64,000 bases of DNA from a virus, in the IMG/VR virus record IMGVR_UViG_3300034407_003683, positions 33,902 to 97,901 of that record. One strand, written 5' to 3'. Positions within the stretch are counted from its first letter, which is position 1, and every line of letters begins with the position of its first letter. The notes beneath the pieces are model-generated. The model searched no databases and was not told where the DNA came from. It saw nothing but the letters and a program-made list of their open reading frames with translations. This document shows positions 3,410 through 50,614 of this stretch, one piece after another. The position numbers and the translations under genes were made by a program.

Positions 3410-4061
3410 TGATTATTATCGATATATGCTACATCAAAAAGAAAATGCTAGCATTAATATTGATACGTCTAATAAGTGCATTCTAGAATGTCCTGGTTGC
3501 CAACGAAATGATTTAAGAAATAAAGATAAAATAAAAAATGGCAATATTATGCCTATATCTGATTTTATAAAAATTGTAGAATATTACGATAATATAAACT
3601 TATGCGGTCAAATATCAGATCCAGTTTATTATAGACATTTTAATGAATTTTTAGATATTACAAAAGAATATCCGACTAAAACTTTTAAAATAGCCACCGC
3701 GGCTCATCAAAAAAATTTACAATGGTATAAAAATGCATTTAATAGACATAATAATAATGTTCAATGGATTTTTGGTTTAGACGGTTTACCCAATACTAGT
3801 TTTTTATATAGAATAAAACAGAATAGTCAATTAATATTTGATGCCATGATATTAGGCACAAAATTAAATAAAAAAATTTCATGGCAATTTATAGTTTTTG
3901 ATTATAATAAACATCAAATTGAAGAAGCAAAAAAGATAGCAAAGGAAAATGATATAAGATTTATATTAACAATATCTGATAGAAATAGAAATAGATCAGA
4001 TAGTCCAGAAGAATATAAAAAAAAATATAAGATAAAAAATACAAAAAGAATTATAACATGA
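3399..4061 (+). CDS. short radical SAM protein (core domain)
   Basis: About 220 residues. The CX3CX2C motif CILECPGC is near residues 27-34 and would bind the [4Fe-4S] cluster that cleaves S-adenosylmethionine. The ATG at 3399 is preferred; a GTG at 3390 is an alternative that adds three residues. The chain ends after the partial TIM barrel and has no auxiliary cysteines of its own; the upstream 108-residue protein carries them. Probable role: radical modification of a sugar or peptide in the glycan cassette. The substrate cannot be read from sequence. Confidence 0.75.
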   Translation: MRDNDYYRYMLHQKENASINIDTSNKCILECPGCQRNDLRNKDKIKNGNIMPISDFIKIVEYYDNINLCGQISDPVYYRHFNEFLDITKEYPTKTFKIATAAHQKNLQWYKNAFNRHNNNVQWIFGLDGLPNTSFLYRIKQNSQLIFDAMILGTKLNKKISWQFIVFDYNKHQIEEAKKIAKENDIRFILTISDRNRNRSDSPEEYKKKYKIKNTKRIIT

Positions 4062-4762
4062 ATATTATATGTGTTAAATGGGGTGATAAGTTTAATCATG
4101 AGCATGTTAATAGGCTCTATAAGATGATACTTAAAAATATAAAAGATGATTTTACATTTGTGTGTTACACAGAAAATCCAAATAATCTACACCCGGATAT
4201 TAAAACTATTCCACTTGATCTCAATTTAAATCTAGAAAATTGGTGGTGGAAACTTACACTCTTTAAACATAAAACGGATGAAGTTAATATCTTTTTTGAT
4301 CTTGATGTAGTAATTCAAAATGATATTACACATCTTAAAGATCTTTGTGTAGAAGATATGTTGTATATGATAAAAGCATATTGGAAAACATATCCTTTAA
4401 CTGAATTTGATACCAATCTAAACTCTTCTGTTATGATATGGAAAGGTGATTTATCTGATCTTTGGATTAAATTTGAAAAAGATCAAGATTATTATATGCT
4501 CAAATATAATGGTATAGATTCTTATTTAGATCATGATCAACATGATAAACTACTTTACATTCCGAAAGGTGAAGTTTATTCTAGGTTATATGGTATAGAT
4601 GAGAATAACTATTGGAAAGTTGGCACAGAATTTAAAAATTATTTCTATTCAGAAAAATATAATATATGCATTTTTAATGGTTGGCGTAGGAAAACCGATA
4701 AGATTAATAACAAATATTTACTAGATAATAATGGATACGAAGGCTTTGAACAATATTATTGA
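4058..4762 (+). CDS. GT-A type glycosyltransferase
   Basis: 234 residues. The nucleotide-sugar/metal motif FFDLDVVIQND (DxD) lies near residue 80 after a GT8-like N-terminal region (NIICVKWGDKF). The WWWKLTLFKH stretch just before it is typical of phage and host enzymes that track a sugar donor. It starts 4 nt inside the radical SAM gene and overlaps the next gene by 32 nt. Donor and acceptor are unknown. Confidence 0.75.
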   Translation: MNIICVKWGDKFNHEHVNRLYKMILKNIKDDFTFVCYTENPNNLHPDIKTIPLDLNLNLENWWWKLTLFKHKTDEVNIFFDLDVVIQNDITHLKDLCVEDMLYMIKAYWKTYPLTEFDTNLNSSVMIWKGDLSDLWIKFEKDQDYYMLKYNGIDSYLDHDQHDKLLYIPKGEVYSRLYGIDENNYWKVGTEFKNYFYSEKYNICIFNGWRRKTDKINNKYLLDNNGYEGFEQYY

Positions 4763-5363
4763 TCCAATATATTGGAAAGTTTTATGGAATGCTGCTAATG
4801 CAGGCTACGACATGAAACAAATGCTTGACAGTTTGTCTCCTAATCAAATTAAATCTAAAGTATGGTTAGTTGAAATGTTAAGTATATGTGCAATAAAAAA
4901 TCCATCTATTCAATTATATGGTGGGTGGAATGGATTTCCTCTTATTGACTTGTTAAGAGAAGAATTCAAAATTTCATTATTAGAAAATATTGATTTAGAT
5001 GAATCAGCGCTGAAGGTCTATAAAAATTTTATTAACAAAAAACAACTCAAAACTAGTGTATATAGAGCAAGACATGGAGATGCGTGTGAGCCATATAAAG
5101 TTGATAAGGAAATAGATATTGTAATTAATACTTCATCTGAACATATGCCAGATTTACCAGAACTTATAAAAAGTAAAAACTATAAAAAATCTTGTATATT
5201 TGCGTTACAGAGTAATAATATGTTTTACGTTAAAGATCATATTAATTGTGTAAATAGTAAAGAAGAATTAGAAACAAAATCTAAATTATCTAGAATATTG
5301 TATTCTGGTACATATGTAATGCCAAATGGATATGAAAGATATATGGTAATAGGCAATGTCTAA
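4731..5363 (+). CDS. class I SAM-dependent methyltransferase-like protein
   Basis: 210 residues. A glycine-rich strand-loop (LYGGWNGFPLIDLL) is followed by an acidic strand (LLENIDLDESAL) and the segment IDIVINTSSEHMPDL, then FALQSNNMF and HINCVNS. This order matches a methyltransferase family common in T4-like marine phages. The substrate is not known; the operon position suggests a glycan or small molecule. It overlaps the neighbouring genes on both sides (32 nt and 8 nt). Confidence 0.65.
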   Translation: MDTKALNNIIDPIYWKVLWNAANAGYDMKQMLDSLSPNQIKSKVWLVEMLSICAIKNPSIQLYGGWNGFPLIDLLREEFKISLLENIDLDESALKVYKNFINKKQLKTSVYRARHGDACEPYKVDKEIDIVINTSSEHMPDLPELIKSKNYKKSCIFALQSNNMFYVKDHINCVNSKEELETKSKLSRILYSGTYVMPNGYERYMVIGNV

Positions 5364-6261
5364 AGTTATTTTTAGTTTATATATTGACATCCCGGAAAAT
5401 GAATTAGACGAACAGTCTGCTCATTGGGGATCAAACATATCAAAAACTCTTCATACGAAAATACAATTAAAAGATAATTATAAATGGCTTATAGAGTCTC
5501 AACAAAGATATGCCAACTATATTGGTGTTGAGTATAAACACTATACATATGATTCTGCTTATATAAAATATAAAGAATGGTTTAATTTAAATTATCCAGA
5601 GGTTACGTCATATAACATTGTTAATTTTTATAAACTTAAATTATTATATAATTTAGCAAAAGACTATGATGAAATATTATATCTAGATCTAGATGTTATT
5701 CCAGTTTCAACCGATAACTTTTTTAAAACTTGGGATTTATCACAAGGTATTGCTATTATGAGTGGTACAGCAGAAAGTCAAAAAGATATTGAAACTGATA
5801 ATAGAGAACTTTTAAGAATTAAATATACGAATAATAGTAATAGATCGCCAATCGCAAAGTATTGGAATGCAAAAGCTATGCTTTTAGAAAAAGGATATAC
5901 ATGTGAATCAACAGTATTTAATACTGGAATTGTTGGAGCATCTCAAAAATGGCTTAAAGCTTTAGACTATTTTGGTGACTTTAGAAATATAATAGATTAT
6001 ATGACGCAGCTAAAAACAGATGATGGATTTTATCCAGAACAGATTCAAAGCTTATTTGGATATGATAATGAAACAATATGGGCATACAAAACACTAAGTA
6101 AAGATGTACCATGGCAAAAGCTAACACCAGATTGGCATTGTTTTATGGATAAATGGAGTTATATTCCATCAAATACTAAACTAGTTCATTGTATCAATAA
6201 AGATTTTAAGTATGTAAGAGATTGGTATGAAAAGAATAATATTCTCAATCTTTTCAAATAA
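5356..6261 (+). CDS. GT-A type glycosyltransferase
   Basis: 301 residues. The motif YLDLDVIPVS near residue 113 is the DxD nucleotide-sugar site, and FNTGIVGAS near residue 192 is the usual acceptor-side loop of this fold. It is related to the next gene product (YFDLDVIPNT, INTGIIGGN), so the pair probably arose by duplication. They overlap by 35 nt. Confidence 0.75.
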   Translation: MSKVIFSLYIDIPENELDEQSAHWGSNISKTLHTKIQLKDNYKWLIESQQRYANYIGVEYKHYTYDSAYIKYKEWFNLNYPEVTSYNIVNFYKLKLLYNLAKDYDEILYLDLDVIPVSTDNFFKTWDLSQGIAIMSGTAESQKDIETDNRELLRIKYTNNSNRSPIAKYWNAKAMLLEKGYTCESTVFNTGIVGASQKWLKALDYFGDFRNIIDYMTQLKTDDGFYPEQIQSLFGYDNETIWAYKTLSKDVPWQKLTPDWHCFMDKWSYIPSNTKLVHCINKDFKYVRDWYEKNNILNLFK

Positions 6262-7003
6262 AGTAGAGAAAAATCACCAGTCAACCGGCGATTTTAAAAT
6301 ATCTCAATTTATAAAATATAAAGATTCTTTAGTTAAATCGCAAAAGGCGTATGCACAAATTTGTAATGCTGATTACGAATTATTTGAAGTATCAGAAACG
6401 CTGTATGATAAAATTCAATTTGACAAACTTTATAAAATGGAAGAGTTAACTCAATATTATGATGAAGTTCTTTATTTTGATTTAGATGTCATTCCTAATA
6501 CAAATGAAAGTTTTTTTAAATCTAATGATTTAAATTCCATTTGTGCATATTCATTTGAAAGAACGTTACAATCAAATGTTCTACAAAGAAAAATATCAGA
6601 AAATGATTTTGATAAAATGAATGTATTTTCAAAAGGCTGTTGTAAAAAATCTATGCTATTACTTGAAGACATAAATTCTGATTATAAAGTAATTAACACA
6701 GGTATTATTGGAGGTAATAAATACTCTATAGATGCTTTATCATTTGATAAGCGATTAGAAAGTACCTATGATATTTACAATCAAACAATTACTGATAATC
6801 TTTATCCTATAGAAATTTCTAGAAACTGGAGACCTAATAATGAAGTGTTTATTACATATATGATAGAAAAATACAAAGTTCCATTTATTAATATTGGTAT
6901 TCAGTGGAATTTTATAATTGACGATATATATCCAAATGTCTCAGAAGCGGGTAAATTAATACATGTAGTGCATAAGGATTTTGGTAAAATATATGACAAA
7001 TAA
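6227..7003 (+). CDS. GT-A type glycosyltransferase, paralogue of the previous gene
   Basis: 258 residues with YFDLDVIPNT near residue 83 and VINTGIIGGN near residue 154. The same motifs in the same order are in the upstream product. The C-terminal LIHVVHKDF matches LVHCINKDF upstream. The start ATG at 6227 lies inside the upstream gene, consistent with coupled translation. Confidence 0.75.
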   Translation: MKRIIFSIFSNKVEKNHQSTGDFKISQFIKYKDSLVKSQKAYAQICNADYELFEVSETLYDKIQFDKLYKMEELTQYYDEVLYFDLDVIPNTNESFFKSNDLNSICAYSFERTLQSNVLQRKISENDFDKMNVFSKGCCKKSMLLLEDINSDYKVINTGIIGGNKYSIDALSFDKRLESTYDIYNQTITDNLYPIEISRNWRPNNEVFITYMIEKYKVPFINIGIQWNFIIDDIYPNVSEAGKLIHVVHKDFGKIYDK

Positions 7004-31422: not shown

Positions 31423-32013
31423 ATGAGTAGTTTATTTGCAAAATTAGAATATGAAGCATTCCGATCCGGAATTAATCCTCGCACTAAAGAAGCACAGGAT
31501 TGGTTTCGTAAAAAAGCACAGCAGATGCGACGGATCAATCGAACTGAATTATTACAAGATGATCAGGTAAAGTTAGCAAATAGACAAAATCCTTTAATCG
31601 GTTCTATGAATATGTTTTTCTATGATCCAAAGACAAAGGATACTCTGCCCTTCTACGATAGATTTCCATTGGCTATTATCGTAGGACCCGCAGAGAAGGG
31701 ATTTTATGGTTTGAATCTACACTATTTGCCACCAGTATTAAGAGCAAAAATGCTGGATGCTTTATTGGATATTACTAATAATAAAAAATATGATTCAACA
31801 ACGCGTTTTCAAATGTCATATAAGATGTTACAATCATCTAGTAAATTGAGATATTTCAAACCATGTTTCAAACACTATCTTACATCTCATGTAAAATCTA
31901 GGTTGGCTCGAGTCGAAGCACCAGAATGGGAAATTGCAACCTTCCTACCAACAGCCAGTTGGGAGAAGTCAAGTGCAGCAAATGTCTACAGAGAATCGAG
32001 GAAAGCCTTATGA
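31423..32013 (+). CDS. conserved T4-like phage protein, unassigned
   Basis: 196 residues. The core MFFYDPKTKDTLPFYDRFPL followed by GFYGLNLHYLPPVLRAKMLD is highly characteristic of a protein next to gp4 and tube genes in T4-like marine phages, but I cannot name its function. It is basic, suggesting DNA contact or virion assembly. It ends overlapping the ATG of the tube protein (ATGA). No Shine-Dalgarno is visible; a late promoter abuts the start codon. Confidence 0.75.
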   Translation: MSSLFAKLEYEAFRSGINPRTKEAQDWFRKKAQQMRRINRTELLQDDQVKLANRQNPLIGSMNMFFYDPKTKDTLPFYDRFPLAIIVGPAEKGFYGLNLHYLPPVLRAKMLDALLDITNNKKYDSTTRFQMSYKMLQSSSKLRYFKPCFKHYLTSHVKSRLARVEAPEWEIATFLPTASWEKSSAANVYRESRKAL

Positions 32014-32702
32014 GTAGTATAGATCAACTAAAATCACTTGCATCATCTAAATTAGGATTTGCAAGAACAAATCAATTTTTGGTTGAATTACCTACCACTT
32101 TTAGTGGTACTGGTGGCTTTTTAGGGCAGTTAACCACATTACTTACCAGTGGTGTAGGTTTAGGTTCTGGTGGTGGTGATCTTAATATACTTTGTGCTAA
32201 TGCAACATTGCCTGGTAAACAAATTATAACACATGAACGTAGAATTGGTATGGAGTTTCAAAAGGTTGCCTATGGTTATGCAGTCGATGATGTAACACTC
32301 ACATTCTATGCACTAAATGATTATGGCGTTCGTAAATACTTTGATGAATGGAAAAATACCATATTAAATGAGAATGGTAATATTGCTGGTTATAAAAAAG
32401 ATTATGTAAAAGATATTAAAATACATCAATTAAGAAAACCAATTAAAAATATTGGTACTAATGCAGGACCTATTAAAGTAAACATTGGATTGGGTGGTGG
32501 TTCTGTATATTCTGTAAGGCTAATAGATGCCTTTCCAACAACAATACAAGCGATTGAATTAAACAATGACATGGATGGACTGGTGCAGATATCAGTTCAA
32601 ATGTCATATACAAATTGGGAACCAGTAAGTAGTGGTCAAGGCTGGATTCAAGCCTCTGGCGGTATTGCTGGCGGCCTAGGTGGATTATCTAATTTTTTAT
32701 AG
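32010..32702 (+). CDS. tail tube family protein, probably tube initiator gp54
   Basis: 230 residues from the ATG at 32010, preceded by GAGGAAAG. The gp19-type fold is indicated by ANATLPGKQIITHERRIGME, DDVTLTFYALNDYGVRKYFD and IQAIELNNDMDGLVQISVQM. gp19 itself is about 160 residues and normally lies with the sheath gene, so this longer copy near gp4/gp48 is more likely the tube initiator gp54. It could still be the main tube protein. Confidence 0.7.
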   Translation: MSSIDQLKSLASSKLGFARTNQFLVELPTTFSGTGGFLGQLTTLLTSGVGLGSGGGDLNILCANATLPGKQIITHERRIGMEFQKVAYGYAVDDVTLTFYALNDYGVRKYFDEWKNTILNENGNIAGYKKDYVKDIKIHQLRKPIKNIGTNAGPIKVNIGLGGGSVYSVRLIDAFPTTIQAIELNNDMDGLVQISVQMSYTNWEPVSSGQGWIQASGGIAGGLGGLSNFL

Positions 32703-32710
32703 GAGTTATT

Positions 32711-32950
32711 ATGGGTAAGAAAAAACAAAGAGCACATCAGACATCAAAGGGTCAACGTAAATCACAAGACTCACGATGGACTAAAGAGGCTCGTAGAGAA
32801 TGGGTTGGTAGTACTGCACAGTTGACTGCAAAGGTTGCGGCATTTAAAAAGGGTAAGAATGTCATGTTGACTATTAAAAACCCTAATACCAATGAAACAA
32901 ATAAACCGTTTATTCGGGTGAATGCAAAGGACGTTTGGAGAACTGCATAA
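32711..32950 (+). CDS. small basic conserved protein
   Basis: 79 residues, very basic N-terminus (GKKKQRAHQTSKGQRKSQDS). AGGAG lies upstream of the ATG. It is followed by gp26 with TAATG overlap. Function unknown; may bind nucleic acid or assist assembly. Confidence 0.75.
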   Translation: MGKKKQRAHQTSKGQRKSQDSRWTKEARREWVGSTAQLTAKVAAFKKGKNVMLTIKNPNTNETNKPFIRVNAKDVWRTA

Positions 32951-33663
32951 TGGCACTGCCAAGATTGAATGAATCACCACAGTATGAATTAGTTATACCT
33001 TCTACCAAAAAAACTATACAATTTAGACCTTTTTTGGTAAAAGAACAAAAGGTATTGATGATTGCTTATGAATCACAAGATCGTAAGCAAATTTTAAATT
33101 CTATTTTAAATACCATTGAAGCTTGTGCACCAGAAATTAATGCAAAGACACTTTCTGCTTATGATATTGATTATATTTTTACAAAGATTAGAACAAAATC
33201 TGTTGGAGAAAAAGCTACTATTATTGCAACTTGTAATGAATGTGAACATAAGAATGAAATAGATGTTGATTTGGATGGTGCATATATTGACGGCGATGTA
33301 AAAAATAACATTATTAAAATAACAGATGAAATTTCAATTAAAATGAGATATCCAAGTTATTATGAAATGATTAATAATGATATCATCACATCGGACAATG
33401 CTACTGGTAGTGAAATATTAAATGAGACTGTTAAACTTTCCATTGAAAGTGTAATGACAGAAGAAGAAAATATTAGTCTTAGAGATGAGTCTGACGAGGA
33501 AATTGAAAGATTTATTAATTCATTGAAAACAGAACAGTTTGGAAAAATTAATGACTTTATTCTTTCTGTTCCTAAATTAAAATTTAATATGAACTATGTT
33601 TGTGAATCTTGTAATAAAACAAATGAAAAAGTGTTGGAGGGAATGGAGAATTTTTTTTCCTAA
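32950..33663 (+). CDS. 26: baseplate hub assembly protein gp26-like
   Basis: 237 residues from the ATG at 32950. The family (T4 gp26) shows as RPFLVKEQKVLMIAYESQD and two zinc-type CxxC pairs (CNECEHK near 95, CESCNKTNEK near 222). gp26 acts as a hub assembly chaperone. The gene ends in a run of eight T (33651-33658) directly before its stop, and an open -1 frame continues for 58 codons. This resembles tail-assembly chaperone frameshift genes upstream of tape-measure genes. Confidence 0.85.
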   Translation: MALPRLNESPQYELVIPSTKKTIQFRPFLVKEQKVLMIAYESQDRKQILNSILNTIEACAPEINAKTLSAYDIDYIFTKIRTKSVGEKATIIATCNECEHKNEIDVDLDGAYIDGDVKNNIIKITDEISIKMRYPSYYEMINNDIITSDNATGSEILNETVKLSIESVMTEEENISLRDESDEEIERFINSLKTEQFGKINDFILSVPKLKFNMNYVCESCNKTNEKVLEGMENFFS

Positions 33664-33833
33664 ACCTCTCTCATGATACATTAGAAAACTATTATAGGAC
33701 GAACTTTCAACTATTGCAAAATTTTCATTATTCTCTTACTGAAATAGATGAAATGATGCCGTGGGAGAGAGAGGTATATTTAGCCATGTTAATGCAGGAT
33801 CTTAAGGAAAAGAACGAGAGTATAAACCAATGA
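33657..33833 (+). CDS. -1 frameshift extension of gp26
   Basis: The -1 frame relative to gp26 is open from the T-run to the TGA at 33831 and encodes about 58 residues (FFLNLSHDTLENYYRT, then LTEIDEMMPWEREVYLAML). No ATG or ribosome site lies near the start of this frame; the first Met codons are at 33753. The heptamer T TTT TTT fits a -1 slippery site, giving a fusion of about 294 residues. Alternatives are a homopolymer error or internal initiation at 33753. It ends on the ATG of the next gene. Confidence 0.65.
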   Translation, partial: FLNLSHDTLENYYRTNFQLLQNFHYSLTEIDEMMPWEREVYLAMLMQDLKEKNESINQ

Positions 33834-43116: not shown

Positions 43117-43812
43117 TTATAGTATTCCATTAGCTGGTGGTCTCCAACCAATACTTTCATCTTTCATTGGTTTTTCCACAATCTCGCCGCGGCGGCCATA
43201 CTTTTCAATTACAATATTGTCTGGTAATTTAAACTTTAGATTATCATGCATATGGTGAAGAATAAATTCACACCGATGTTCCTTACCAGAACCATTAAAA
43301 TCTTTAAAGATATTTTGCCACAAAGGCCTCCAATTGTTTGTTAACCTATTGTTATTCATATTACCTCTATCAGAATTGATATAGATGTCAGTGTAACTTC
43401 TTAGATTAAAATCAAAAATTGAATCAAATCCATACATATGGATTCTATCTGCCTTTAGATGTTGAGCGGCAAAATATACTGCCATGTGACCACAATTTAG
43501 ATCGGTATAATTTGCAGCATATTTTGGCAATTTGGTATAGAACATTTTAATCTGATGTGACCTTTGCATATGGAATCCTGGATGTTTTTCCATATACACC
43601 TTAGGTCTTGCTCCTAGAATCCATTCTCCAGGCACATCAACATCACCCTTATGAATAGTCTTCATCATCTTAAAGTCCACCATGCACGATGCATAGCAAT
43701 TCTCAATAGGAAATGGTGCTTTATTACACGCTAGTTTTAATCCTTTTCTAGGAGCTTCATTATAGAATACTGCGGAATCCCCATTACCCACCACATGTAC
43801 TGTCTTAGCCAC
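43117..43812 (-). CDS. sialyltransferase-like/DUF115-like glycan enzyme
   Basis: 231 residues. The opening VVGNGDSAVFYNEA and ACNKAPFPIENCYASCMVDF resemble the GNGPS-type nucleotide-sugar loop of Cst-like sialyltransferases and DUF115 proteins, and HMYGFDSIFDFNLRSYTD matches their second motif. Probable glycosyl transfer. It is the last gene of the minus-strand glycan operon and overlaps the preceding glycosyltransferase by 8 nt. Confidence 0.55.
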   Translation of the reverse strand: MAKTVHVVGNGDSAVFYNEAPRKGLKLACNKAPFPIENCYASCMVDFKMMKTIHKGDVDVPGEWILGARPKVYMEKHPGFHMQRSHQIKMFYTKLPKYAANYTDLNCGHMAVYFAAQHLKADRIHMYGFDSIFDFNLRSYTDIYINSDRGNMNNNRLTNNWRPLWQNIFKDFNGSGKEHRCEFILHHMHDNLKFKLPDNIVIEKYGRRGEIVEKPMKDESIGWRPPANGIL

Positions 43813-44488
43813 GTAGAGCCTCCATAATTTTCATTTTACCTCTAATCCTATCATTACCTTGTTCACCAGTCCAATGCATAATCTTTTTATTTGGACTATC
43901 TTCATTATCAGCTTCAACTTGTAGTCGTAACCAATTATATATGTTTGGTAGTTCGGCGATATAGGTAATCATAGTAATAGGGTTTAACATACTATGTAAC
44001 ACTTCTTGATCACCAACTGCTGGATTTCTTTTTACAGCTTCAGCCCATTGTTTTAGAATATCTGGTTTCTGATGAAAACCAACAACACCAGAATTGTGCC
44101 ATTGTTCATTACGCCGTAACAACCATGGTCTATCAATTGCCATTGTAAGTTTATTTGGTTGAATATATCTAAACATATTTTCAATATTACCTAGTATTTC
44201 ACAATCAGTATCAATCCAAAACACATTATGACCTGGTGCGGATAACATTGCAGCTGGTTTATGAAACCAACCTTTGTCATAGTTCTCATCACCCTTATTA
44301 ATATCCATGTAACAAAAAACACCAGCCCTATCATAGACACGTTTTTTCATTTCTTCTGACATACCAAAATTGGCAACTGCAATTGGTATGGTATTATGCT
44401 TAAAATAGTTATCTAAAAACCATGGCAATTGCCATTCAGTTTTTTTATCACATCCAGTAACAATTAATTTTTCGGGCATCTTAGGCAT
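43805..44488 (-). CDS. GT-A type glycosyltransferase
   Basis: 227 residues. VFWIDTDCEILGNIE holds a DTD nucleotide-sugar motif near residue 92, and HNSGVVGFHQ the acceptor-side loop. The alternative ATG three codons in is possible. Overlaps neighbours by 8 nt on each side. Confidence 0.75.
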   Translation of the reverse strand: MPKMPEKLIVTGCDKKTEWQLPWFLDNYFKHNTIPIAVANFGMSEEMKKRVYDRAGVFCYMDINKGDENYDKGWFHKPAAMLSAPGHNVFWIDTDCEILGNIENMFRYIQPNKLTMAIDRPWLLRRNEQWHNSGVVGFHQKPDILKQWAEAVKRNPAVGDQEVLHSMLNPITMITYIAELPNIYNWLRLQVEADNEDSPNKKIMHWTGEQGNDRIRGKMKIMEALRG

Positions 44489-45131
44489 TGATTATCTCAT
44501 ATCCATCTTTATAATTGTGTTTTGCGATACAGCCGTCTTCTTTCTGAATAGTAGTAAAACTATCCACGGCCATACAAACCCAAGGATAATATTCTTGCAA
44601 CCATGAGAAGTTTTGAAGATTAATAAATGTATCAGCCGGTGCGGCATTAATTAATGCTTTAGCAATAAACTTTTTTGCACCAACAGGATTAATCATATAA
44701 CCATGTGCACCACCAAAGTATTGTTTCTGAACTAGTCCATCAACTCCAAGCTTTATTGGTGTATTAAATTTACCATATGATGGTTTTGAGAATGTCATAC
44801 ATCCATCAAATTTCTCATTTACTGGGACTGGGCCGGTAATAACAGCATCATGCTCAAAGACTACAATTGTCTCATCATTTTCAACTGCCATCTCCCATAG
44901 TGAATGATGTGATAAAAAGCACGACATACAATTTTCTAATCGAGAGTATCGTTCAACAAATCCGTGAGGAGAAATACCTTTCTTATGTAGAATTTCCCAT
45001 GGTTTGTCTTTAGGAGTATATGCTTTGTGCATATTAACTTCAAGTCCATATTTGGCGGCAGATTTAATACATCTTTCTGCCGCCTTTACAGACTGAGGAT
45101 TATCCATAATTGTAATTACAAAGGCTTTCAT
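44481..45131 (-). CDS. GT25-family glycosyltransferase
   Basis: 216 residues. LENCMSCFLSHHSLWEMAVE followed by TIVVFEHDAVI is the GT25 (LPS biosynthesis) pattern of SHxxxW then ExDA. GAHGYMINPVGAKKFI matches the C-terminal family block. Paralogous to the next upstream gene product. Typically adds hexoses to LPS-like glycans. Confidence 0.82.
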   Translation of the reverse strand: MKAFVITIMDNPQSVKAAERCIKSAAKYGLEVNMHKAYTPKDKPWEILHKKGISPHGFVERYSRLENCMSCFLSHHSLWEMAVENDETIVVFEHDAVITGPVPVNEKFDGCMTFSKPSYGKFNTPIKLGVDGLVQKQYFGGAHGYMINPVGAKKFIAKALINAAPADTFINLQNFSWLQEYYPWVCMAVDSFTTIQKEDGCIAKHNYKDGYEIINA

Positions 45132-45132
45132 A

Positions 45133-45831
45133 TCAATTCACCGTAGTTGATGGGAGTCCTTGAACTCTTGTAAAATAAAGTTTAGTCACACCCAAGTTAG
45201 GAATAATTTGCTTACACATTATTGCATCGTTTGGCCAAACACCATGTTCTTTGACTGCCTCAAGTAAGTTTTTAGCACCCTTAGGTTTAATTATATATGC
45301 AGAATTTCCGGCAAGGCCTTGAGGAATATTGAACTCATCAATATCTGGTACTGGTTGTACCCATGCTGGTTTACTCTGTACAATATCATGGAATTGATGC
45401 GCACGGCGCGTAGCTGACGCAGGAGAGTTAATGCCAATGATATCATAGTTACTCTTAAGGATAGATTTATAATCTAATTTTTCAATAAACAATGCATCAT
45501 GTTCCATAATAAGTATTGGTTTATCAATTGTGGTGCATTTATGCCACAACAACCAATGGCTCATTGCACATGCAATTCTACTATTCTTATTTGATGTCTG
45601 ATATGCAGACTTAACAAGACCAGTTCTAAGGTCTGTCTCTTTACCTTCCCATGGATATTTCCATTTAAGACCATTGCCGATCATAATAGTATGTGCCATA
45701 TCAGGTGTCACAGCATCAAATATATTAATATCAAAATTATTTTTTACTTTTTTTGACGATTTAATAAGGTTATTTGTTCCGACCTGTGATGTTTCACTAT
45801 TTGCTAATGTTATGGCATATGCATCTAACAT
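45133..45831 (-). CDS. GT25-like glycosyltransferase
   Basis: 232 residues from the ATG at 45831, which avoids overlap with the FkbM gene. ACAMSHWLLWHKC, ILIMEHDALF and NSAYIIKPKGAKNLLEAVKE parallel the downstream GT25 product. Donor and acceptor unknown. Confidence 0.75.
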   Translation of the reverse strand: MLDAYAITLANSETSQVGTNNLIKSSKKVKNNFDINIFDAVTPDMAHTIMIGNGLKWKYPWEGKETDLRTGLVKSAYQTSNKNSRIACAMSHWLLWHKCTTIDKPILIMEHDALFIEKLDYKSILKSNYDIIGINSPASATRRAHQFHDIVQSKPAWVQPVPDIDEFNIPQGLAGNSAYIIKPKGAKNLLEAVKEHGVWPNDAIMCKQIIPNLGVTKLYFTRVQGLPSTTVN

Positions 45832-45832
45832 A

Positions 45833-46519
45833 TTAGAAACCTCTGTATCTATTTTTATGCCCTGAAATTTTATGATTAATATCGGCCTTAATAAAGACAA
45901 TATCCATCTGATTTACAACATTATGTCTCATTGCAATGTGATCAACTCCAGTTGGAATAAAACCATTAGCATACATTGTGTCAATATATTTACTAAAATT
46001 TGGTGCACCTTTATTATATGGCATTATTGGCATTTCTAATATTGCTACTTTGGCATGTTCCATTGCATCAGAGCCACCATTAATAATATCTACCTCAGCA
46101 CCCTGTGTATCCATTTTAATAAAATCTGGTAAAGGTAGATTCTTTTCTTCAATTACTGTATTAAGTTTCTTTGTAGTTAACAGTACAGATTTACCTTCGG
46201 AATAATTAACAGTTAATTCCTTATAATAACTATCACCAGTACTTGCCTTACCACTATTAGCTAAAAAGAACTCCACTGTTCTATCATCTGCATCTGATAA
46301 TACCTGATGCATATACATATCATTATTTAATGAAATTGCACATTTATTATTTGGATTGGCTTCGAACATAATATATTTGGCATTAGGAATATGCTTTCGC
46401 CATTCCTGGGTCCATCTACCTACATTAGCACCAATATCATATACTACATCAATGTTATATCCAGCATTAATTACTTCATTAATAACCGTAGTACAAGGTC
46501 TTTCCATATTTCTAGCCAA
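45833..46519 (-). CDS. FkbM-family methyltransferase
   Basis: 228 residues. VVYDIGANVGRWTQEW is the SAM-binding loop, FEANPNNK the acidic strand, and DFIKMDTQGAEVDIINGG the FkbM signature. These enzymes O-methylate sugars or polyketides. In a glycan operon a sugar O-methyl cap is the simplest guess. Confidence 0.88.
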   Translation of the reverse strand: MARNMERPCTTVINEVINAGYNIDVVYDIGANVGRWTQEWRKHIPNAKYIMFEANPNNKCAISLNNDMYMHQVLSDADDRTVEFFLANSGKASTGDSYYKELTVNYSEGKSVLLTTKKLNTVIEEKNLPLPDFIKMDTQGAEVDIINGGSDAMEHAKVAILEMPIMPYNKGAPNFSKYIDTMYANGFIPTGVDHIAMRHNVVNQMDIVFIKADINHKISGHKNRYRGF

Positions 46520-46520
46520 T

Positions 46521-47222
46521 TTATTCTCCTATAATTCCGGCATTTACCAGATCAATATAATTTTCTTCTCTACTCTTAGGCTTGTGTCTGATGTGTATCA
46601 TATTAGCCTTTTCCGGATTTGGAAGATAGCTACTGTAATCCCATTTCTCATCCAAATATTTATCTAGTTTAAAGTTAGCTTTTACACACAGAACATGGAA
46701 GATACCTTCATCAACATACGGCCTAGGGCTAATCTGTTCAAATACTTTTCTCATGGCCGGATTAATTTGTGCCCTCATTAATTGTCTAAATTCTCTAGGC
46801 ATAACATAGATGGCACCAGACCACATAGGATAGTTTGGATTGCCCAATCTAGGAAACTCATTAATGAATGCAGGTAATTGTCTCTCACGGTGGATCTGAT
46901 CAAATGGTGCAATGCCTTTTGCTTCAAATACATTTTCGGTACAACTAGTTGTGACAAACTTATCGGTATCCAATACAACTACTGTATCATAATCATCATA
47001 TTCTTCATTAATTGCGGCACACTTCTGACACTGACCTCTTAAACCTTTTTGGAATGGTTCTCCATCCAAGAGCTTATATTCAGCACCAAGTTTATCGGCA
47101 TACTTTTTAATATTCTCTACACTCTTTTCTACGATGAATGGTAACCTACCACCACGAGATTCCATCTCTTGAATTACATTTGGCCGAAATGGGTGAAAGT
47201 GTTGTAGAATAATATTTTTCAT
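46521..47222 (-). CDS. GT-A type glycosyltransferase-like protein
   Basis: 233 residues from the ATG at 47222. NIILQHFHPFRPNV opens it, like the paralogue upstream. VVVLDTDKFV provides the DxD, and WSGAIYVMPREF the later loop. It has two extra Cys in GQCQKCAA. Likely donor-specific paralogue. Confidence 0.7.
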   Translation of the reverse strand: MKNIILQHFHPFRPNVIQEMESRGGRLPFIVEKSVENIKKYADKLGAEYKLLDGEPFQKGLRGQCQKCAAINEEYDDYDTVVVLDTDKFVTTSCTENVFEAKGIAPFDQIHRERQLPAFINEFPRLGNPNYPMWSGAIYVMPREFRQLMRAQINPAMRKVFEQISPRPYVDEGIFHVLCVKANFKLDKYLDEKWDYSSYLPNPEKANMIHIRHKPKSREENYIDLVNAGIIGE

Positions 47223-47869
47223 TTTATATAGTTCTTTCTGTTTCCACAATAATGTACTAGTGTAGCATCCGGAGCAGCTTCCTCTGGTAGGTCACAAAAT
47301 CTATCATGAGGAATTTCTAATTTTGTTTTATTATCTAAAATGCCTGATTGCACAATTAAATAATGCATTATGATCTCATCGTTTGGTGGTAATCCATCGG
47401 ATGACATACTATTATGTATTACGTCAGTATTCAATTCTTTTCTAAGATTGATTCGTTGTTCTCTAGTAAATTTAACACAATTGCCAAAGAACATAGGCTG
47501 TTGTCTGGTATAGAGTTTTGGCCATTTACGACCATTTTTACTACCACTGATATTTCGCATACCGACTTTATGAAGCCGTCCAATACCATTATGAATAAAA
47601 ATATTATCCAATTTACCAGTAAATAACATATCCATATCTAACATAAGTACATTATCATACTCATCATATTTTTCATTCAACATAAAGATTTTTTGAATTA
47701 CCAACCATGGCTTTGTTTTTGTATTGGGAAACCAGTCACCCATAGGAAATCCTTGAAGCAATTCATAATCTGCTCCAATTCTTCTAGAATAGTCTTCAAT
47801 ACTATTTTTACAAATATTTGCCCATCTAGGCATATCACCATGCCAATGCTGTAAAATAATATTTTTCAT
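47219..47869 (-). CDS. GT-A type glycosyltransferase-like protein
   Basis: 216 residues from the ATG at 47869 (one-base overlap with the upstream stop). NIILQHWHGDMPRW, LMLDMDMLFTG (DxD) and HYCGNRKN near the end. Same family as the downstream product (shared start NIILQH). Confidence 0.72.
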   Translation of the reverse strand: MKNIILQHWHGDMPRWANICKNSIEDYSRRIGADYELLQGFPMGDWFPNTKTKPWLVIQKIFMLNEKYDEYDNVLMLDMDMLFTGKLDNIFIHNGIGRLHKVGMRNISGSKNGRKWPKLYTRQQPMFFGNCVKFTREQRINLRKELNTDVIHNSMSSDGLPPNDEIIMHYLIVQSGILDNKTKLEIPHDRFCDLPEEAAPDATLVHYCGNRKNYIK

Positions 47870-48678
47870 TATAGATTCCATTCAGAAACAGGTAGATTTA
47901 CTACTCGTTTAATTTTATCGGCCGGCCAATTATCTGCACCATTTAATTGAATATGTACCATATTTGCATTTTTTCTTAAATCAATTACTGGCCTTGGTTG
48001 TTGTTTATTACCTGGATCAAAGTGGACAGAACTATTCCATTTATAGTCCATGGTCAACCAATCAAATGCACATACTTCTAACATTGCATGAAAATAAGGT
48101 TGATCACAAGTATAGAATGCCGGCAGATTAAATACTTTAGCCAAATTTACATATTTTGCAAAATCGTATAACTTTTCTCTTGCTTTTGCCAATCCAGCCT
48201 TAGAGTAAATAATAACACCGGTATTATAAACTTTAGGTAGACCATCGGTAGTACGTGGCATTTTTACTGGCCACTTTTTTTCAATAAGTGCTACCCATTT
48301 TTCATCATTGGCGTTATTAATTCCACCACCAATAGTATATTTTTTTCTGGTCAATGGTGCATTAATTTCTTCACAGATACCAATTTCAAAATTAGTACCA
48401 TAGAATTGTTCAAAAATGTTTTCATTACAAATATCTGTTGGTACAACATCGCAATCTGCATACATAATATAATCATATTCAGAATATTCATCTTCGAATA
48501 TTGGTTTAAATTTACCATAATTTGCAGAATAGGAACCTAAGTCTGTCCTAAATTTTGGATTGTGTTCGTACTTATGATCTGCCCCAATTCTTTTGGCATA
48601 CTGTTCCATGGCTTCAATACCAGCCATATTACCAGGTCGTTCAGTACCATCCCAACATTGATATATCAGTGTTTTCAT
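47869..48678 (-). CDS. GT-A type glycosyltransferase-like protein
   Basis: 269 residues from the ATG at 48678. TLIYQCWDGTERPG, YIMYADCDVVPTD (DCD), YNTGVIIYSK and FYTCDQPYFHAM. Same general family as the gene at 49820 (LIYQVAVG, IIDADIYI), so this operon holds several diverged copies. Confidence 0.75.
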   Translation of the reverse strand: MKTLIYQCWDGTERPGNMAGIEAMEQYAKRIGADHKYEHNPKFRTDLGSYSANYGKFKPIFEDEYSEYDYIMYADCDVVPTDICNENIFEQFYGTNFEIGICEEINAPLTRKKYTIGGGINNANDEKWVALIEKKWPVKMPRTTDGLPKVYNTGVIIYSKAGLAKAREKLYDFAKYVNLAKVFNLPAFYTCDQPYFHAMLEVCAFDWLTMDYKWNSSVHFDPGNKQQPRPVIDLRKNANMVHIQLNGADNWPADKIKRVVNLPVSEWNL

Positions 48679-48680
48679 AA

Positions 48681-49823
48681 TTACCACTTTGGTGATGTAA
48701 GAATATTATTTACATTTAGATTATCTTTCATCTTTTCTGCAATAAACTTTACATCATCAACCAAACCTTTATTTAATGTAATGGGTTTAAACCCTAGGCT
48801 TTTAAGCCCTTCATTACTCACAGATAGATCATTCTCTGCAAGTTCTTTACGAGGATTATCGACATACTTAATAGTACCACCATACGATTCTGCACACAAT
48901 TCGGCAAGTTGTTTTACAGACATAACCTCTGAAACTTGATTAAAGATACGAACCTTACCTTTACTTGGTGGATTTTGTACGGCCAGTGCAACACACCGAG
49001 CAGTATCTTCAATATGAATAAAGGCGCGTTTTTGACCACCAATACCATAGACAGTAATATCATTACCAGTTGCTGCCTGAGAGATAAAACGATTTAACAC
49101 AGTACCATAGATTCCATCATAATCAAATCTGTTGGTGAGCGTCTCATGTTTTCTAGTTTGTTCGGTTTGTGTTCCCCAAACAATACCTTGGTGTAGATCA
49201 GTAATTTTAAGCCCCCAGTTCTTATTATAGAATTGGAATAGCAATTGGTCCATAGATTTGGTCATATGATAAACACTACCAGGATTTGTAGGATATAGAA
49301 TATCAACATCCTTTTCGGTAGAGTTAATCTTTACATTCAGATAACCTTCTGGAATATCGCCAAACTCTTTCGAATAACCATATACACCCATTGTACCCAA
49401 ATGTACCAAGTGAATATCTGGATTTACTTCTACAATTGCAGAAAGAATATTATGTGTGTTGGTGATATTATTGTCAACCGTATAGCGCCGAGTTGTAGAA
49501 TTAATCATTGAGTATGGAGCAGCACGTTGTTCGGCAAAATGGATGATGGTATCTGGATAAAAAACAGAAATAATATCTAATAACTCATCATAATTATTAA
49601 TATCAGTATTGACGATATCAATGCTACCACCAATCATTGCGCGGGCAACTTTAATTCTCTGGCCAGGGTCACTAATATTGGTAAGTGAATTTGAACCTAG
49701 TTCTTTATCAATCTTCCGCCGAACAAGATTATCAATAATGAGAACATCATGACCTTCATCCAATAACTTTAACGATGTAGGCCAACCACAGAACCCATCA
49801 CCACCTAATACAATAATTCTCAT
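48681..49823 (-). CDS. UDP-sulfoquinovose synthase-like (SQD1/SqdB) SDR enzyme
   Basis: 380 residues. Extended SDR with GGDGFCG (7-13) and, throughout, SQD1-specific motifs: DNLVRRKIDKELG, HFAEQRAAPYSMI, LHQGIVWGTQT, NRFDYDGIYGTVLNRF, TVYGIGGQKRAFIHIEDT, RIFNQVSE, C-terminal SPKW. Catalytic Thr144, Tyr185, Lys189 correspond to SQD1 Thr145, Tyr182, Lys186. SQD1 converts UDP-glucose and sulfite to UDP-sulfoquinovose, used for sulfolipid and for S-layer glycans in some archaea. In this operon the sugar probably feeds the neighbouring glycosyltransferases (inference). Overlaps its upstream neighbour by 4 nt. Confidence 0.88.
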   Translation of the reverse strand: MRIIVLGGDGFCGWPTSLKLLDEGHDVLIIDNLVRRKIDKELGSNSLTNISDPGQRIKVARAMIGGSIDIVNTDINNYDELLDIISVFYPDTIIHFAEQRAAPYSMINSTTRRYTVDNNITNTHNILSAIVEVNPDIHLVHLGTMGVYGYSKEFGDIPEGYLNVKINSTEKDVDILYPTNPGSVYHMTKSMDQLLFQFYNKNWGLKITDLHQGIVWGTQTEQTRKHETLTNRFDYDGIYGTVLNRFISQAATGNDITVYGIGGQKRAFIHIEDTARCVALAVQNPPSKGKVRIFNQVSEVMSVKQLAELCAESYGGTIKYVDNPRKELAENDLSVSNEGLKSLGFKPITLNKGLVDDVKFIAEKMKDNLNVNNILTSPKW

Positions 49824-50614
49824 TCGTCTACTCCAATTTGTTTCATTAATTCTTTTACATCTTCACCGCGGTTTGGTAGTTTATCCTTTAGGAAAAAATG
49901 TACAAAATTTGCTTCTTTAATTTTACTATTATCTATTGCAGTATAAAGTGCGTTCCATTTCCAATCAAGCTTCTGCACGGTCATACCACACGTATTTACC
50001 CAGTAATTAAGTAGTGTTTGGTCTGTAGACCATTTCCAACCACCCATACCATCAACAAACTTTTTAAACTCTTCGCGGCGAATAAATTGTTCTGGTGTCT
50101 GTCCATTCAGATATTTTGCAAATGATTTATTCATTACCATCATTCCCATATTCATAAATGGGAATCCAGTTGCTTCATTATATTGCCAATTGATTTTTAA
50201 TTGACCATATTGCATTTTAGAATAATTGGAAATTTTTTGCACATACCATGGTAGAATAGGCATGGATGCTTCGACAACTCCACCAAAATCTGCTTCTGGT
50301 TTTAGGTCATCAAAAATATTTGGAGCATCTGTACGGATATAGATATCGGCATCAATAATAGCAATCTGATCGTATTGGTCAAAATATGAAAAGGCATTTT
50401 CCTTCTCATAGATTGGAAGGAATCCACCATGCTTTTCATATGACTCTTTACTACGATTTGTAACAAAGATATCTGGTTTAATTCTTAATTTTGGTATGGT
50501 CTGTACAATATGATCAATATTATGTTTTGCACAATATTCTGCACACGATTGGATACAGTGTTTATATAGTCTAGACTTTGCACCAACAGCAACTTGGTAA
50601 ATCAATCTTTTCAT
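49820..50614 (-). CDS. GT-A type glycosyltransferase-like protein
   Basis: 264 residues. LIYQVAVGAKSRL, IAIIDADIYIRTD (DxD) and FMNMGMMVMNK are the fold markers; WSTDQTLLNYW is the later acceptor-side block. First gene of the minus-strand glycan operon. No strong promoter was seen in the 40 bp upstream, so read-through from the 50.7-52.4 kb genes is likely. Confidence 0.75.
   Translation of the reverse strand: MKRLIYQVAVGAKSRLYKHCIQSCAEYCAKHNIDHIVQTIPKLRIKPDIFVTNRSKESYEKHGGFLPIYEKENAFSYFDQYDQIAIIDADIYIRTDAPNIFDDLKPEADFGGVVEASMPILPWYVQKISNYSKMQYGQLKINWQYNEATGFPFMNMGMMVMNKSFAKYLNGQTPEQFIRREEFKKFVDGMGGWKWSTDQTLLNYWVNTCGMTVQKLDWKWNALYTAIDNSKIKEANFVHFFLKDKLPNRGEDVKELMKQIGVDE

Follow-up and report, generated by a model that had tools for sequence, protein, structure and literature searches.

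The window, from a marine-type T4-like phage, covers 64,000 nucleotides of a 97.9-kb contig of an uncultivated virus and has T4-type tail genes. Among named phages in the collections, Phage C48C1 (Kyanoviridae) is its closest relative. We were interested in the 3' end of gp26, where the initial annotation had proposed a programmed -1 frameshift from the DNA letters. Features of this locus are collected in Table 1. The gene order gp4-gp2-gp54-gp26-gp51 is common to C48C1, phi-ST2, and PX29. We note that two clusters of glycosyltransferase-like and sugar-epimerase-like ORFs, at 4058-7003 and 43117-50614 of the window (translations judged by eye), flank the structural genes.

Table 1. Features around the gp26-gp51 junction, in positions of the window.
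Feature	Position	Strand	Basis or remark
Tail tube / tube-initiator (gp54-like) gene, upstream	31926..32702	+	phrog_45 tail tube, E=1.2e-34; conserved order
gp26, putative short form TAC-N	32950..33663	+	237 aa; PF12322 T4_baseplate; phrog_150
Shine-Dalgarno-like GGAGGGA, possible -1 stimulator	33636..33642	+	GAGG ends 10 nt before heptamer
Slippery heptamer T TTT TTT	33651..33657	+	within T8 run 33651-33658; X XXY YYZ register
-1 frame extension, gp51 / TAC-C domain	33657..33833	+	58 codons + TGA; phrog_634, E=1.3e-22
Next gene, tape-measure candidate, 509 aa	33830..35359	+	position and size; ATG overlaps -1 TGA

The gp26 protein of the window matched the Pfam family PF12322, T4_baseplate (E=2.2e-54; 185 bits, with a cut-off of 24.5), and the baseplate hub profile phrog_150 (E=1.2e-55). 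Judged by profile matches, the locus belongs to the T4 gp26/gp51 family (PF12322, phrog_150, and phrog_634). An AlphaFold model of the protein (pLDDT 88.6) resembles predicted gp26 structures of T4-like phages. A Foldseek comparison of this model with the HK97 chaperone 2ob9 was not significant (E 4.6, probability 0.15), and no solved chaperone was matched significantly. The window protein has two cysteine pairs, CNEC and CESC, in a zinc-ribbon-like arrangement; T4 gp26 also has two cysteine pairs, and cyanophage gp26 has CxDDGE and NPKT in their place.

The 3' end of gp26 reads GAG AAT TTT TTT TCC TAA, with the stop codon at 33661-33663. The eight consecutive Ts described in the initial annotation are thus present, and the proposed slip site falls in the register expected of a -1 heptamer. 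In the -1 frame the open stretch begins at 33627. Counted from the first codon past the slip (33657), it runs for 58 codons to a TGA at 33831-33833, and this TGA shares bases with the start codon of the following gene (ATGA, 33830-33833); the initial annotation had described both the overlap and a length of about 58 codons. The predicted fusion, TAC-NC, comes to 294 aa, the size first estimated. The -1 peptide (33657-33830) matched phrog_634, which is gp51, "hub assembly catalyst". A tblastn search with the same peptide at a permissive limit (E<=10) matched 951 phage records (best E 3e-20), mostly from cyanophages, other Kyanoviridae, phages of Rhizobium, Vibrio, and Aeromonas, and T-even phages. 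By this homology, the -1 ORF behind gp26 is a gp51 domain and not random sequence.

Anatomy, homology, and the conservation of slip site and frame can be read directly from the gp26-gp51 loci of relatives, which were found partly by single-protein scans of viral contigs. About 200 loci were gathered; 196 had a gp26 ORF, and 132 distinct junctions carried a gp51 domain. This domain was in the -1 frame at 191 of the 196 loci and at none in another frame, and it was in the -1 frame at all 132 distinct junctions. The five loci without a detected gp51 domain were L022 (a truncated contig), L185 (a broken gp26), T4, the T-even phage KP1079, and K369. U UUU UUN was found in the same register in 131 of 132 junctions, as U UUU UUC (75), UUU (30), UUA (24), or UUG (2); the lone junction without it was that of VAP7 (Ackermannviridae). 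Conservation of the T-run and of the -1 frame, the alignment test first proposed for this locus, was therefore borne out on both counts. The codon before the slip invariably ends in T and the first phenylalanine codon is invariably TTT, for which the codon use of the genes themselves predicts about 0.5 per junction; many junctions share ancestry, so that joint statistics over them are not independent and a joint probability is not a true p value. Four phages keep the U6 run despite a gp26 GC content of 51-53%, and the slip site is also kept in KVP40-type and PX29-type phages, which belong to the same virus family as T4. Over the 17 codons past the slip in the 131 distinct junctions, the -1 frame is free of stops and the other two frames are stopped in 131 and 129. 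Amino acid identity past the slip is 0.50 in the -1 frame versus 0.29-0.30 in the other frames.

These comparisons bear on an assembly error, in which the true run would hold nine Ts and gp26-gp51 would be a plain fusion gene, a case that the initial annotation had itself raised. Homopolymers are error-prone. However, a second contig, L007, has the identical eight Ts, relatives with differing flanking DNA also have T8, and distant relatives have U6 with the same -1 register. The recurrence of T8 in L007 and behind different flanks makes a nine-T sequencing error very unlikely, to the point of being negligible.

We considered whether gp51 could instead be a short gene in its own right, read through reinitiation or translational coupling once gp26 has terminated, with an incidental T-run. 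Annotators list it as its own gene in many phages, an ATG lies just past the stop in P-SSM2 and S-PM2, and the junction reads TGATG or TAATG in Cr30, phi-ST2, and RHph_Y68; VAP7 and K369 have TAATG and no U6. In the window, however, the earliest candidate starts in the -1 frame are TTG at 33714 and ATG at 33753, both within the conserved domain, which agrees with the original remark that this frame has no start signal of its own. The annotated starts in C48C1, HTVC008M, and Melnitz are likewise internal and lose conserved residues, and the U6 run persists even where an ATG is present. Across the 132 junctions, 75 lack an ATG in the 12 codons that follow the slip, a class that includes the window; in 9 more the only ATG is that at codon 8 or 9, inside the domain, and an ATG stands at codon 3 in 34 and at codon 2 in 8. 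The initial annotation had pointed to relatives with a separate, own-start gp51 as evidence against frameshifting: there are none in the window lineage, but an ATG does occur at the junction of some relatives. We therefore rejected a separate gp51 gene for the window lineage, where we give it only a slender chance, and regard it as a possible addition in phages with a junction ATG. Free gp51 made by reinitiation could be added in relatives with an ATG at codon 2 or 3.

Several public records misannotate gp51. The gp51 spans of C48C1, HTVC008M, and Melnitz (L001:4283-4387, L004:4253-4390, and L005:4250-4393) begin at an internal ATG. Just after gp26, gp51 is unannotated in ACG-2014e, S-WAM2, DSL-LC03, and S-WAM1 (L085, L086, L087, and L199). 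The TAATG junctions of VAP7 and K369 lie at the gp26 stop (L096:3678 and L195:3717) and suggest a third route to the second product. Reading gp26 and the -1 frame together corrects a widespread misannotation of gp51 as a separate short gene or as one with an internal start, or its omission.

We looked for elements that may stimulate slippage. The glutamate five codons before the slip is encoded by GAG in 71% of cases vs 27% at other gp26 glutamate codons (Fisher p=1.6e-18, phylogeny not corrected), and a Shine-Dalgarno match of at least 4 nt is found in 86% at the pre-slip site vs 19% elsewhere. The Shine-Dalgarno-like tetramer typically ends 10 nt before the heptamer, with a second class at 8 nt; the 10-nt spacing resembles that of the dnaX stimulator. 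Past U UUU UUC sites, hairpins that begin some 5-9 nt beyond the heptamer exceed synonymous-codon controls in stability (mean z -2.6), and the same measure at three control positions gives a z of about -0.6. For the P-SSM2-like group, pairing in the helix is 84% vs 29-43% when slid, with compensatory changes at four pairs; the helix of the S-PM2-like group has weaker support, with one compensatory pair. No downstream hairpin was found in the window relative to synonymous-codon controls (z -0.3). Candidate stimulators are thus visible and appear to differ by lineage, with an upstream Shine-Dalgarno-like GAGGG and a downstream hairpin, the latter in cyanophages whose slip site is U6C.

The same elements speak to RNA polymerase slippage on T8, which would yield mixed transcripts and produce the fusion at the level of transcription. 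A run of eight Ts approaches the length where slipping by bacterial polymerases generally sets in. In about 100 of the 131 distinct junctions, however, the run stops at six Ts, with C, A, or G next, in the same register; this is a short run for polymerase slippage. The Shine-Dalgarno-like element and the hairpins downstream also favour the ribosome as the site of slippage. Transcriptional slippage is disfavoured by these U6 relatives, and we regard it as highly improbable.

The gene that follows the junction was described at first as having tape-measure features. Its place and size fit, and long genes also follow the gp26-gp51 junction in relatives; a sequence match to known tape measures was not found. 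The 509-aa protein had no family match in Pfam/PHROG profile searches and no homology to known tape measures, and a profile built from its relatives failed to reach T4 gp29. We consider it a tape-measure candidate by position and size only. In several relatives a small gene of about 80-150 aa lies between gp51 and the long downstream gene (L004:4403-4735, L005:4411-4740, L089:3174-3422); it is absent from the window.

From the sequence comparisons, we conclude that a -1 ribosomal frameshift on T8 at the end of gp26 very probably makes short and long tail-assembly chaperones, as happens in most long-tailed phages. Gp26 and the following -1 frame would form a single chaperone locus of the lambda G/GT type. 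The majority of ribosomes would terminate at the gp26 TAA and release the 237-aa TAC-N, and a minority would slip one base back on U UUU UUU to make the gp26-gp51 fusion, TAC-NC. If lambda and T4 are a guide, the two forms may chaperone assembly of the tape-measure protein, and the added gp51 domain may recruit tube or hub parts. That slippage occurs in cells, how efficient it would be, and that the products act as chaperones are inferred for the window phage. In one Klebsiella phage record, both gp26 and gp51 already carry the label of tape measure chaperone.

T4 offers a comparison. Its gp26 and gp51 are both classed among the chaperones of hub assembly, and gp51 is required yet absent from the particle (PMC3004832). 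Residues 1-201 of T4 gp51 match PF12322 (E=3.9e-52), and the whole protein matches phrog_150 from 13 to 280 of 282. On these alignments, T4 gp26 and gp51 are paralogues, and a single gene, that of gp51, naturally joins a gp26 domain in frame to the -1 domain. The gp26 of the window is orthologous to T4 gp26 and its -1 domain corresponds to the C-terminus of T4 gp51; the T4 genes, in contrast, are two, divergently placed (L095:6480-7229 and 5803-6429), and without a slip site at the junction. Cyanophage gp51 is about one-fifth the length of T4 gp51, with a conserved C-terminus (Sullivan and co-workers 2010, PMC3037559). Because gp51 combines the gp26 domain with the -1 domain, T4 would encode as two genes what the window phage gets from one. 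In a tree, four T-even gp26 proteins group with four gp51 N-domains, and a branch with 100/98 support separates them from every frameshift-type gp26; the gp26 of 44RR is very divergent and sits on a long branch. The simplest reading, in a tree whose root is not determined, is that a T-even duplication replaced the frameshift. The T4 hub chaperones gp26 and gp51 may then be explained as two forms split into two genes.

We tentatively extend this to a broader picture of interchangeable stimulators in the T4 superfamily, to which, taken as a whole, we assign somewhat less than an even chance. GAGGG about 10 nt upstream would be the common element; U6C cyanophages would rebuild the hairpin with different sequences; the window lineage would trade the hairpin for the longer T8; and lineages that lost the device would have made up for it, T-evens by duplicating the gene and VAP7-like phages through stop-start coupling.

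A 2022 study by Vladimirov et al. reportedly found frameshifting to be conserved in several T4-like groups, with T4 said to use genes 26 and 51. Its subject is the tail assembly chaperones of T4-like phages, under the names TAC-N and TAC-NC (Vladimirov, Gautam, and Davidson, Virology 2022). The PRFect paper cites it for T4-like phages with one short and one long gene (PMC10885494), and the phage Adele paper cites it for poly-T -1 signals in T4-like TAC-N genes (PMC12846349). The remark in the initial annotation that no T4-type gp26 case was established is overtaken by this publication, which already reports a T4-like chaperone frameshift. The general claim was made in 2022, and our analysis adds scale and visible candidate stimulators. 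A 2016 review described G-T frameshifting as conserved in long-tailed phages 'except T4' (PMC5009743); cyanophage-like relatives of T4 would keep the lambda-type chaperone device once thought absent as the T4 exception.

The arrangement in the window can be set beside three known systems. It shares with the T4-like TAC-N/TAC-NC genes of the 2022 study, as cited, a poly-T -1 signal at the end of the TAC-N gene, and differs in coming from an uncultivated lineage nearest to Phage C48C1 and in having T8. In Pseudomonas phage Adele and other Vandenendeviridae, a poly-T motif ahead of the tape-measure gene likewise gives a -1 frameshift that is conserved (PMC12846349), but the motif is GTTTTT and the virus family is a different one. 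With lambda G/GT, as with P2 E/E' and Mu, the likeness is one of layout, namely a short ORF, a slippery site near its end, and an overlapping -1 ORF, beside a long tail gene; unlike that of lambda, the slip site of the window is U-rich.
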